Positions 31,443-34,665 of a DNA stretch of 64,000 nucleotides are shown here, piece by piece; positions within the stretch are counted from its first letter, which is position 1, and every line of letters begins with the position of its first letter. Under the pieces are notes generated by a model that was given only the letters and a program-made list of their open reading frames with translations, searched no databases and was not told the DNA's origin. Both the position numbers and the translations under genes were made by a program. Source of the stretch: an uncultured Bacteroidota bacterium (GTDB taxonomy: Bacteria > Bacteroidota > Bacteroidia > Flavobacteriales > Flavobacteriaceae); contig CACKQW010000006.1 in the NCBI GenBank assembly GCA_902602415.1, positions 1 through 64,000 on the forward strand. The letters run 5' to 3'.

Positions 31443-33656
31443 TTAAATGTTATCAATGATATTATTTAAAGTGATTGAAGGTCGCATTATTTTATTGATA
31501 ATAGAATTATCAGTTTTATAATAACCATTTAAGTCTATGCTTTTCCCTTGATTTGAATTAATTTCATTCATTATTTTATTTTCATTTTTTAATAGGTCTT
31601 GATAAACTTTAGAAAACTCATTTTTAATTTCTTTGTTTTCATCTTGACTGCTTAAAAATTTTGACCAATATAAAGCAAGATAGAAATGACTTCCTCTACT
31701 ATCAATTTCACCAACTTTTCTTGATGGAGATTTATTATTTTTCAAAAGTTTTTCTATCGCTTGATTTAAACAAACAGAAAGTATTTTAGAATTTGGATTT
31801 TTGAGAGACATGTCTTCTAATGCTACAGAAATAGCTAAAAATTCTCCGAGAGAGTCCCATCTGAGATGATTTTCTTTTAAAAGTTGCTGAACATGTTTCG
31901 GAGCAGAGCCACCTGCACCAGTTTCGAAAAGTTTACCTCCATTCATTAAGGGAACAATTGATAACATTTTTGCACTTGTACCTAACTCTAATATCGGAAA
32001 CAAATCTGTTAAATAGTCTCTTAATACATTGCCAGAAACAGAAATAACGCTTTTTCCTTCTTTTACTTTATTTAGTGTAAAAACCGTAGCTTCATAAGGG
32101 CTCAAAATTTGAATATCTATTTTTGAGGTATTGATTTTCTTTAATTCTTTTTTTACAACTTTAATTATTTCTAAATCATGTGGTCTTTTCTTATCTAACC
32201 AGAAGATAGTTGGAAAATTTGTTTGCTTTGCTCTGGAAATTGCAAGCTTGATCCAATCTTTGATAGCATCTTTTCTGACAAGGCACATTCGCCATATATC
32301 TCCTTTCTCAACAATATGTGATGCTATAGTTTTTCCATCTTTTGTTTGGACCTTGATTTGTCCAGCTTTTTTTATTTCAAATGTCTTGTCGTGAGAGCCA
32401 TATTCTTCAGCTTTTTTTGCCATTAGGCCAACATTTTGAACGGTGCCCATAGTCGATGGATCAAATGCTCCTTTTTCTTTACAAAAATCAATTGTTGCTT
32501 GGTAAATTGAAGCATATGTGCTATCAGGGATTATAGCTTTAGTGTCTTTAAGTTCTCCGTTCCTATTCCACATTTTTCCAGAACTTTTTATCATTGCAGG
32601 CATTGATGCATCAATAATCAAATCACTTGGGACATGAAAGTTTGAAATATTTTTTTCAGAATCAACCATTGCAATTTCAGCACTTGAAAGAAATATATTC
32701 TCCATTTCTTTTGTTATTCTATTTTTTTCATCTTTCTCAAGAGACTCTATTTTTTCATACAAAATAGATAAACCACTGTTAAAATTTACATTTAAATCTG
32801 AAAGAATTTTTTTATTATTTAAAATGAAATCTTTAAAATAAACCTTAAGCATATGTCCAAAAATGATAGGATCACTGACTTTCATCATCGATGCTTTTAA
32901 ATGAAGGGATAGGAGGATTTTTTTATCAACACAATTTTTTAATTGTTTTTCAAAAAACTTATATAATTCTCTAATGCTCAGAAAGCTTGTATCAATAATT
33001 GTCCCTTTGTGAACAGTAATATTTTCTTTGAGAATTGTTTTTTTATTATTTTCATCATAAAAATAAATATTCAATAATTCATGTTTTTTAGATGTATTAG
33101 ATTTTTCATTGTTTCTGAAATCTCCACTGCTCATTGTTGAAACATGGGTCTTTGATTTTTTTTCCCATTTACCCAATTTATGTGGGTTTGTTTTAATGTA
33201 ATTTTTTATAGCTAGGGGTACCCGTCTATCTGAATTTCCTTCTCTCAAAATCGGGTTTACTGCACTTCCTTTGATTTTATCATATATTGATTTTATAATT
33301 AGTTCATTATCATTATTTGGCTTTTCAGGGTAGTTTGGAAGTGGGTATCCTTTGGATTGTAATTCAATTATTGCTTTTTTTAATTGTGGAATTGATGCAC
33401 TAATGTTAGGTAATTTAATGATATTTGCATTTGGATCTTTTACTACTTTACTTAAAAATTCTAAATCATTTTCATATTTAACTTTACTTCCCAAAAAATC
33501 GTTGAATGTTGCCAAAATTCTTGCAGACAATGAAATATCTCTGGTTTCAAATTTAATTTTTGAAGATTTGGTAAATGCTTGTAAAATTGGAAGAAGGGAA
33601 GCGGTTGCTAGGGCAGGAGCTTCGTCGGTTTTGGTGTAAATAATCTTCAACATCAA
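31443..33656 (-). CDS. icd: NADP-dependent isocitrate dehydrogenase, monomeric type
   Basis: 737 aa; IYTKTDEAPALATASLLPI, PNISASIPQLKKAI, SNSRVPLAIKNY-like region (EGNSDRRVPLAIKNYIK), GAGGSAPKHVQQL. Confidence 0.95.
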   Translation of the reverse strand: MMLKIIYTKTDEAPALATASLLPILQAFTKSSKIKFETRDISLSARILATFNDFLGSKVKYENDLEFLSKVVKDPNANIIKLPNISASIPQLKKAIIELQSKGYPLPNYPEKPNNDNELIIKSIYDKIKGSAVNPILREGNSDRRVPLAIKNYIKTNPHKLGKWEKKSKTHVSTMSSGDFRNNEKSNTSKKHELLNIYFYDENNKKTILKENITVHKGTIIDTSFLSIRELYKFFEKQLKNCVDKKILLSLHLKASMMKVSDPIIFGHMLKVYFKDFILNNKKILSDLNVNFNSGLSILYEKIESLEKDEKNRITKEMENIFLSSAEIAMVDSEKNISNFHVPSDLIIDASMPAMIKSSGKMWNRNGELKDTKAIIPDSTYASIYQATIDFCKEKGAFDPSTMGTVQNVGLMAKKAEEYGSHDKTFEIKKAGQIKVQTKDGKTIASHIVEKGDIWRMCLVRKDAIKDWIKLAISRAKQTNFPTIFWLDKKRPHDLEIIKVVKKELKKINTSKIDIQILSPYEATVFTLNKVKEGKSVISVSGNVLRDYLTDLFPILELGTSAKMLSIVPLMNGGKLFETGAGGSAPKHVQQLLKENHLRWDSLGEFLAISVALEDMSLKNPNSKILSVCLNQAIEKLLKNNKSPSRKVGEIDSRGSHFYLALYWSKFLSSQDENKEIKNEFSKVYQDLLKNENKIMNEINSNQGKSIDLNGYYKTDNSIINKIMRPSITLNNIIDNI

Positions 33657-33675
33657 TCACTGTTATTATAAGTTT

Positions 33676-33683
33676 CAAATATA
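33676..33683 (-). promoter_or_regulatory. Bacteroidota -7 element (TATATTTG) for icd
   Basis: Minus-strand TATATTTG, 19 nt upstream of the ATG. Confidence 0.5.
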
Positions 33684-33726
33684 AAGAATGCTTATAAAAA
33701 AAATGTTAAAAATGATAATAGTTTCT

Positions 33727-33775
33727 AAAAAAAATGAAAGCCACATTTGAGTATTGCTACCCCAATATGGCTTTC
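33727..33775 (-). terminator. intrinsic terminator (12-bp stem followed by U8)
   Basis: Minus strand GAAAGCCATATT-ggggtagcaatactca-AATGTGGCTTTC-A-TTTTTTTT. Confidence 0.85.
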
Positions 33776-34150
33776 TGAATTTCGAAAACTGTTTCTGTTT
33801 TGAATTGCTTCTCTACCAGGCATATTTTCTCAATTGTTGAACTGTCTGGCTTACTCACTTCTCTAGGAAATTTTCTGCTCAGCAGTTCTTGATTACTTAT
33901 TCAAATATGGCCAAAGCTATATTTGATATAGGCTTATTACTTAATTTCATAATCCTCACTTCTCACCAAGTTTCCTTGATGGATGAAAAAACATTTAAAT
34001 TGTGCAGGCACACTTTCAATAGTTTTTTCGTAGTTAATTTAAGCTAGGCTTAAATTCTTAATAAGTAATCATGTCAAAGAACGTTCTAGAATTTGACTTG
34101 TTTAACAAGTTGTTTATCCTTTCGGAGTCCACTACAAATCCTTTAACAAT
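33727..34150 (-). ncRNA. candidate highly structured non-coding RNA of unknown family
   Basis: No ORF. By-eye helices: 12-bp long-range pair 33890-33901/34060-34071 enclosing hairpins 34036-34056 (9 bp), 33985-34029 (8-bp base), 33965-33980 (6 bp, GAAA loop), 33914-33935 (9 bp, one bulge). Flanking hairpins at 34096-34110 and 33781-33804. Ends in a perfect intrinsic terminator. 5' end approximate. Confidence 0.65.
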
Positions 34151-34215
34151 AATAATATAGAAATCTAATATTCAAAAAATAAAATTGATAAAGATATTAA
34201 CTACTTTTAAACCAT

Positions 34216-34240
34216 ACTTATTAACAATTGTTAAATAAGT
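34216..34240. repeat. near-perfect palindrome ACTTATTAACAATTGTTAAATAAGT at the rplS stop codon
   Basis: 25-bp inverted repeat with one asymmetric base; last base is the first base of the rplS stop triplet (plus-strand coordinates). Confidence 0.7.
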
Positions 34241-34590
34241 TAAGCTCTTTTTTCTTTAATTTTTGCTTTCTTCCCCGTTAGGTTTCTAAAATAAAATATT
34301 CGAGATCTTCTTACTTTCCCTTTTTTATTTAATTCAATCTTTTGAATAGACGGTGAATTAATAGGAAATATTCTTTCTACTCCAGTATTTCCAGACATTT
34401 TTCTAATCGTGAAGGTTTCAGTTGCATCTTCACCTCTTCTTTGTAATACAACACCTTTGAAAAATTGTGTTCTCGTTTTAGATCCTTCTTTTATTTCATA
34501 AAATACGGTAATTGTATCGCCTGAACAGAAAGATGGATAATCTTTAACTCCTTTTAAGTCGTTTTGAATATTTTTAATAATACTATTCAT
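34240..34590 (-). CDS. rplS: 50S ribosomal protein L19
   Basis: PSFCSGDTITVFYEIKEGSKTRTQFFKGVVLQRRGEDATETFTIRKMSGNTGVERIFPINSPSIQKIEL. Confidence 0.96.
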   Translation of the reverse strand: MNSIIKNIQNDLKGVKDYPSFCSGDTITVFYEIKEGSKTRTQFFKGVVLQRRGEDATETFTIRKMSGNTGVERIFPINSPSIQKIELNKKGKVRRSRIFYFRNLTGKKAKIKEKRA

Positions 34591-34618
34591 TATTATATGG
34601 TGTAATGTATAACGGGTG

Positions 34619-34626
34619 CAAATATA
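34619..34626 (-). promoter_or_regulatory. Bacteroidota -7 element (TATATTTG) for rplS
   Basis: Minus-strand TATATTTG, 28 nt upstream of the ATG. Confidence 0.5.
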
Positions 34627-34665
34627 ATTAAAAAAATAAATCGATAAATTATTTTAATGATTAAT

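Follow-up and report, generated by a model that had tools for sequence, protein, structure and literature searches.

A structured RNA of about 420 nt is encoded on the minus strand (approximately 34147–33727) of the gap between rplS and icd in the DNA analyzed here, a 64,000-nt stretch from an uncultured bacterium of the Flavobacteriaceae (henceforth termed the window). Its sequence, synteny, conserved structure, conserved boxA sequence, and terminator are shown below. The explanation we consider likely is that it represents a new family of stand-alone, structured non-coding RNAs of the Flavobacteriaceae, expressed from its own promoter with the aid of boxA and the Nus complex and acting in trans as an RNP scaffold or housekeeping RNA; transcription, Nus loading, the role in folding, and the function in trans are all inferred. 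The stand-alone reading rests on fold stability (z = -5.55), covariation in two alignments, a model built without the window's genus that recovers the window copy and 178/301 family genomes, synteny with rplS (27/28), and promoter-like boxes for both the RNA and icd. Involvement of boxA and Nus is proposed because an rRNA leader or spacer within the genus carries the same boxA and a long-range helix, P1, directly follows it in three groups of sequences with different P1 sequences. A new family is supported by the lack of Rfam matches, both for the window and for 20 family loci.

A first-pass annotation, made from the sequence alone, had described mutually compatible inverted repeats in a non-coding gap, and these structural claims held. 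All hairpins it had named lie on the minus strand where it had placed them, as do a 12-bp helix (34071–34060, TGATTACTTATT, pairing with 33901–33890, AATAAGTAATCA) and a terminator with U-tract (33775–33727). They coexist in the minimum free energy (MFE) structure of 33727–34160 (-114.8 kcal/mol), which holds P1, the nested hairpins, and the terminator together. Dinucleotide shuffles of this segment (n = 100) averaged -82.4 kcal/mol (sd 5.8), and 0/100 were as good as the native sequence. No ORF longer than 52 amino acids occurs across the gap on either strand. At gathering score, an Rfam 15 cmscan of the whole window returned nothing but two tRNAs and that of 33650–34250 nothing; at E ≤ 10, matches in the latter region were confined to chance ones with microRNAs, sRNAs, and snoRNAs, all far under the cut-offs.

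The transcript is ordered as promoter-like box, 5' hairpin, boxA, P1, 3' helix domain, and intrinsic terminator (Table 1). Its 5' end is inferred from the -7-like box, which keeps its position, ca. 77–89 nt upstream of boxA, in most copies.

Table 1. Features of the RNA locus in the window.
Feature	Position	Strand	Basis
Whole RNA gene, ~420 nt	33727..34147	-	Fold z -5.55; genus covariation; covariance model match to 3' domain
-7-like promoter box TATATTAT (relatives TAAATTAG / TATATTAG)	34152..34159	-	Consensus match, function unproven
5' hairpin domain, GGATTTG/CAAATTC stem with TCC-GAAA-GGA and CUUGU/ACAAG sub-hairpins	34089..34141	-	Helices 1–3, genus alignment
boxA ACGTTCTTTGACA	34072..34084	-	Shared with 16S-23S spacer of same genome; conserved in genus, groups A and B
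P1 long-range helix, 5' strand	34060..34071	-	Helix 5, genus alignment
P1 long-range helix, 3' strand	33890..33901	-	MFE fold; genus alignment
P2 hairpin AATTTAAGCCTAGCTTAAATT	34036..34056	-	Helices 6 and 7: both-side changes in 5/7 pairs (genus alignment)
P3 arm GAAAAAAC/GTTTTTTC with apical hairpin GTGTGCCTGCACAATT (34013–33998)	33985..34029	-	Helices 8–10
Hairpin ATCAAG-GAAA-CTTGGT, variable region	33965..33980	-	Sequence and MFE
Hairpin preceding P1 3' strand	33914..33935	-	Helix 15: both-side changes in 6/7 pairs (genus alignment)
3' domain, first stem-loop AGAACT/AGTTC, conserved GAGTAA	33839..33889	-	Helices 16 and 18 (genus alignment)
3' domain, long helix AATTGAGAAAAT/GTTTTCGAAATT	33778..33835	-	Helix 19; R1 match 33732–33892
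Intrinsic terminator GAAAGCCATATTGGG-GTAGCAATAC-TCAAATGTGGCTTTC with U-tract	33727..33775	-	Helix 22: both-side changes in 6/17 pairs
Conserved DNA block, three GTTNATA-type units (TTTAACAATTGTTAATAAGTATGGTTTAAAAGTAGTTAATATCTTT)	34191..34235	-	Upstream of RNA promoter; pattern search
icd separate -7-like box TATATTTG	33676..33683	-	Present in most genus and family gaps
rplS (ribosomal protein L19), fixed upstream neighbor	34240..34590	-	27/28 synteny
icd (monomeric isocitrate dehydrogenase), usual downstream neighbor	31443..33656	-	Not adjacent in several genera

Similarity searches detected this DNA in same-genus genomes. The genus, of MED-G13 type and seemingly known only from MAGs and single-cell genomes, comprises MED-G13, the single-cell or metagenome genomes AG-333, AG-390, and AH-321, and others. 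In all 16 recovered loci rplS is followed by the RNA, with icd next wherever the contig goes on; four genomes of the genus with no detected RNA (G001, G012, G018, G019) have incomplete assemblies from which rplS is also missing. The alignment of these 16 copies comprises 139 pairs, with 92.0% of cells standard. Both-side changes affect 48/139 pairs, compared with 25.3 ± 2.7 after shuffling, and the covariation score of 0.209 compares with 0.115 ± 0.005 for shuffled and 0.05–0.07 for slid controls. P1 is paired in 99.4% of cells with both-side changes in two pairs, helices 1–3 of the 5' domain are well paired with little covariation, the apical P3 motif is invariant in the 16 sequences, and the GCAA loop of the terminator is conserved in most of the genus, the same terminator type occurring family-wide. 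The window copy is shortened, with ca. 100 nt more in most members of the genus; an arm of about 65 columns and other stretches present in the remaining members are absent from it and from its sister G008. The ATCAAG-GAAA-CTTGGT hairpin is limited to this short form.

Most other Flavobacteriaceae examined have an rplS-icd gap of 560–890 nt with the layout of the window, i.e., rplS terminator, conserved DNA block, promoter-like box, hairpin, AACGTTCTTTA (ca. 220 nt past rplS), and terminator GAAAGCCATRTCA...TGATATGGCTTTT, and the homologous RNAs span about 420–550 nt. Nineteen sequences from 19 genera, termed group A, can be aligned over the whole RNA, yielding 142 pairs in 25 helices with 93.4% of cells standard; the long helix of the 3' domain has the group A counterpart AAATAGTGA/TCACG..CTATTTC. 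Both-side changes were counted in 84 pairs (46.1 ± 3.8 shuffled) and 308 cells (96.7 ± 9.4 shuffled), and the covariation score reached 0.392, compared with 0.208 ± 0.006 for shuffled and 0.062–0.085 for slid alignments. None of these group A values was attained by any shuffle. In both alignments covariation exceeds all 500 shuffles and all slid controls. Shuffles ignore relatedness, but the slid control keeps it, and the observed values lie several-fold above the slid ones. A structured non-coding RNA, which should display compensatory changes beyond both kinds of control, is thereby supported.

For an independent view of homology, a covariance model, R1, was built solely on 18 group A sequences, restricted to their 3' domain and leaving out the window's genus. 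R1 recovers group B copies at 41.6–65.3 bits and matches several loci of the window's genus on the coding strand, among them L004 (34.0 bits, E 1.2e-5), with every match running up to the terminator as expected. In the window it finds the 3' domain in place (33732–33892, 24.9 bits, E 0.0022); part of the score in this genus comes from the terminator stem. That the helices are chance foldings of AT-rich DNA is all but excluded by the fold z-score, by covariation above the controls in both alignments, and by this recovery; after the controls, no support for chance folding is left.

Matches to R1 occur in 178 of 301 Flavobacteriaceae genomes and 148 of 238 genera, showing that the RNA is kept in most genera of the family. 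The positions of rplS and the RNA were compared by hand: in 27 of the 28 genomes having both, the RNA follows rplS on its strand at a distance of 319–472 nt, whereas in the remaining one (G095) both sit at contig ends. About 40% of the family genomes lack a match, and four genomes of genus g149, which we take to be Flavobacterium solely because no other genus is as numerous in the sample, have a gap of only 220–300 nt in which boxA was not found; the RNA is therefore not indispensable for the family. Diverged, weakly scoring copies at the rplS locus in G175 (C1:32306–32465, 34.2 bits) and G098 (L154, 33.6 bits) suggest that the true reach within the family exceeds the count of the model. In a phylum sample of 299 genomes, eight of nine R1 matches fell into Flavobacteriaceae and the ninth was weak. 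Matches outside the family were weak (best 25.7 bits within the order and 31.2 bits within the class); their synteny was not examined, and we treated them as chance. Separately, G185 carries two strong matches on different contigs (C4:73435–73651 and C91:1944–2113), possibly a second copy or assembly contamination.

The RNA contains a motif of the type found in rRNA operons. The boxA of the window, GTTCTTTGACA, deviates by one change from the gammaproteobacterial consensus GYTCTTTAANA (PMC5725501) and is identical to the rRNA spacer boxA of its own genome; the 16S-23S spacer reads AAAATGTTCTTTGACATATTG, with GTTCTTTGACAT common to spacer and RNA. Other genus copies, GTTCTTTAACA and GTTCTTTAAAA, fit the consensus fully. 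Closeness to both the consensus and the organism's own rRNA boxA, as expected at the sequence level of boxA-directed (Nus antitermination) transcripts, is thus given. GTTCTTT precedes P1 in 16/16 genus copies, 18/19 group A copies (the exception, L057, has ATTCTTT), and 6/7 group B copies. Across the family, 16S leaders carry GTTC(T/A)TTAACATATTGAA at about -132 to -147, and within the genus the 16S leader of G016 has ATGTTCTTTAAAATATTG, compared with ATGTTCTTTAAAATAGATT in the RNA of four species. In the 16S leaders of L211, L212, L213, L223, and L130, we also observed GTTCATTAA instead of GTTCTTTAA.

The 5' strand of P1 begins within a few nucleotides of boxA in three groups with differing P1 sequences, i.e., ATTACTTA/TAAGTAAT in the genus, AATTGTTTTT/AAAAACAATT in group A, and a TATTGTTGTTT helix in group B. 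In pre-16S rRNA, tethering of boxA to NusB is thought to aid formation of the long-range leader-trailer helix, and altering the distance between boxA and helix lowers activity (PMC10250234). The adjacency of boxA and P1 is the appearance expected of boxA-assisted folding, an inference that neither binding nor expression data back. A small hairpin (AUAAAG/CUUUAU) into which boxA can fold in group A counts against this explanation, as it might mask the motif or signal that its role is structural.

We accordingly propose the following model as a hypothesis. A promoter downstream of rplS would drive an untranslated RNA of ca. 420 nt here and up to ca. 550 nt in relatives. Early in the transcript, the rRNA-type boxA would load NusB-S10 and the Nus complex onto RNA polymerase, allowing the enzyme to complete a long untranslated RNA without Rho termination. 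The complex may also hold the 5' end by the exit channel, as proposed for pre-rRNA, such that P1 closes when its distant partner emerges. The intrinsic terminator would stop the transcript ahead of icd, which would be served by its own promoter-like box, and the finished RNA, whose target is unknown, would most likely work in trans, either as a folded scaffold of an RNP or as a housekeeping RNA.

The same boxA admits another reading, namely that the RNA titrates Nus factors or S10 and thereby couples rRNA antitermination to another signal. The conserved rRNA-type boxA and the location beside a ribosomal protein gene speak for it. However, a boxA alone would suffice as a sink, leaving 25 conserved helices unneeded, and the motif occupies the 5' end, a placement shared with transcripts whose own transcription relies on boxA. 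We thus regard titration as unlikely and favor a boxA that serves the RNA itself.

The location of the RNA likewise raises the possibility of a cis-regulatory leader or attenuator of icd that senses a signal and switches its terminator between termination and read-through. Consistent with this idea, the RNA precedes icd in the same orientation and has a terminator at its 3' end, with icd next in the window and in most relatives. Several observations make it improbable, however. A -7-like box, TATATT(T/C)G, follows the RNA terminator ahead of icd in 14/15 genus gaps and 30/33 family gaps, although the pattern is loose and the DNA AT-rich. The RNA remains with rplS even in several genera that have another ORF between the RNA and icd or showed no icd within the stretch retrieved. 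Size and complexity go beyond those of typical leaders, no alternative antiterminator pairing was seen, and the terminator stem is 94–100% paired in both alignments. A leader should always lie directly upstream of the regulated gene and lack a separate promoter, expectations at odds with the gene order in several genera and with the promoter-like box of icd. The intervening ORF in L050, L052, L056, and L057 encodes ca. 190–213 amino acids and is pentapeptide-repeat-like; the true start of icd in the window is likely a few codons inside the listed ORF.

The stand-alone reading agrees with the first-pass annotation, which had suggested a dedicated structured RNA rather than a UTR. This view is supported by strong covariation in the separate same-genus and group A alignments, by the RNA's own promoter-like box and terminator, by the separate box of icd, and by the ORF that parts the two in some genera. 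Its statement that the RNA is neither RNase P RNA nor tmRNA also held: RF00010 and RF00023 gave no hit at the locus, and both genes reside on other contigs of the same genome (190.6 and 133.1 bits, respectively). It had likewise seen no SRP domain IV motif, and no SRP Rfam match was found at the locus. The marine IMES-type RNA that it had named as a mere possibility is not supported by any Rfam match, and “lineage-specific” was right but too narrow for a family-wide RNA. The rRNA-type boxA, the family-wide homologs, and the shortened form of the window copy had been missed. A further candidate, 6S-Flavo (RF01685) or a replacement for 6S RNA, was rejected: there was no hit at the locus, and 6S-Flavo is located elsewhere in the same genome and in 16/16 genomes tested. 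Viral or mobile spread was rejected as well: the core motif had 27 matches in viral contigs, and the 12 of these loci scanned with R1 gave none at E ≤ 1; no similar DNA was found in a phage collection. In a genome-wide motif scan, no hit outside the genus lay beside rplS or icd, and an inspected Mesonia hit was within a coding gene.

Long, multi-helix, stand-alone RNAs with highly conserved structures are known, among them GOLLD, ROOL, OLE, HEARO, and IMES, and large structured bacterial RNAs of unknown function thus have precedents. None of these families, nor any other in Rfam 15, reached the gathering cut-off at the locus by cmscan, and the RNA described here differs in occupying a fixed single-copy core locus in one family. 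One could still envision a large ribozyme-like or self-assembling RNA akin to GOLLD, ROOL, or OLE that forms multimers via palindromic CCUAG loops. Many helices, GNRA-type loops, and paired GCCTAGC hairpins in 14/16 genus copies would fit, but group A has no such loops, the short form in the window has lost them, and no Rfam model matches, leaving this scenario doubtful. The hairpins themselves, two short elements with a palindromic CCTAG loop, occur in most genus copies (L005–L018, alignment A1 columns 221–260) and are missing from the window and G008; the window still carries GCCTAGC within P2. Such loops might kiss each other or another molecule.

The closest parallel to the proposed stand-alone RNA is the rRNA operon leader or spacer, where a boxA of the same sequence also stands early in an untranslated structured transcript, with the 5' strand of a long-range helix coming next. 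Here, however, no rRNA or tRNA lies inside, the transcript has its own intrinsic terminator, and P1 starts within a few nucleotides of boxA, compared with 18–19 nt between boxA and boxC in Enterobacteriaceae. Outside rRNA operons, boxA is found in the suhB mRNA leader (PMC5725501), and CRISPR array leaders carry it as well; these are an mRNA leader and array precursors rather than a folded stand-alone RNA. To our knowledge, the combination of such an RNA with an rRNA-type boxA is not known, and the published boxA survey states that non-coding RNAs were not considered (PMC5725501). Structured and conserved non-coding RNAs have been reported in the family among the independent transcripts Rfp1-89 of F. 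psychrophilum (PMC9723704); in contrast to our RNA, they stem from the presumed genus of the four genomes without such a gap and boxA. No description of an rplS-icd RNA was found in the open-access literature searched, and the family matches none described.

Few structured bacterial RNAs longer than 400 nt are known, and where their function has been established it is mostly a central one, as for rRNA, RNase P RNA, and tmRNA. The core-genome position of this RNA in at least 148 Flavobacteriaceae genera and its persistence in a small marine genome (1.27 Mb, 74% complete) suggest that it probably matters for fitness. We lean, with reservation, towards a bolder reading: a new housekeeping-type class of non-coding RNA that may use the rRNA transcription and folding machinery (boxA-Nus and a boxA-proximal closing helix) for a non-ribosomal RNA, is retained by most genera of a marine bacterial family that is a dominant one, and was overlooked because the best-studied genus seems to lack it. 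The Nus complex as a transcription and folding machine for RNAs beyond rRNA thereby becomes testable.

The DNA around the RNA has features of its own. A 29-nt flavobacterial element, the L19-Flavobacteria leader (RF03130), shares the rplS locus and differs in lying upstream of the gene; besides tRNA, it was the only match in an Rfam 15 cmscan of 20 family loci, present in 20/20, and in the window 34591–34665 (-) gave no gathering-score match to it. It is very unlikely that the gap is instead a DNA element such as a replication origin with an incidental RNA. In favor of an origin, the window has dnaA at a distance of ca. 5 kb, and GTTNATA units are repeated in the block preceding the RNA; however, two complete relatives show no cumulative GC-skew minimum here when ±200 kb are considered, one of the two does not have dnaA in the vicinity, and base-pair covariation demonstrates an RNA. 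The block's pattern was found in 39/75 gaps with the consensus ATTAACAATTGTTAATAAC...GTTTATAA...GTTGATATCTA. It is conserved family-wide more strictly than most of the RNA, its three units look like degenerate DnaA boxes or the site of a regulator, and it also occurs at some loci without a clear RNA model match (L060, L145).
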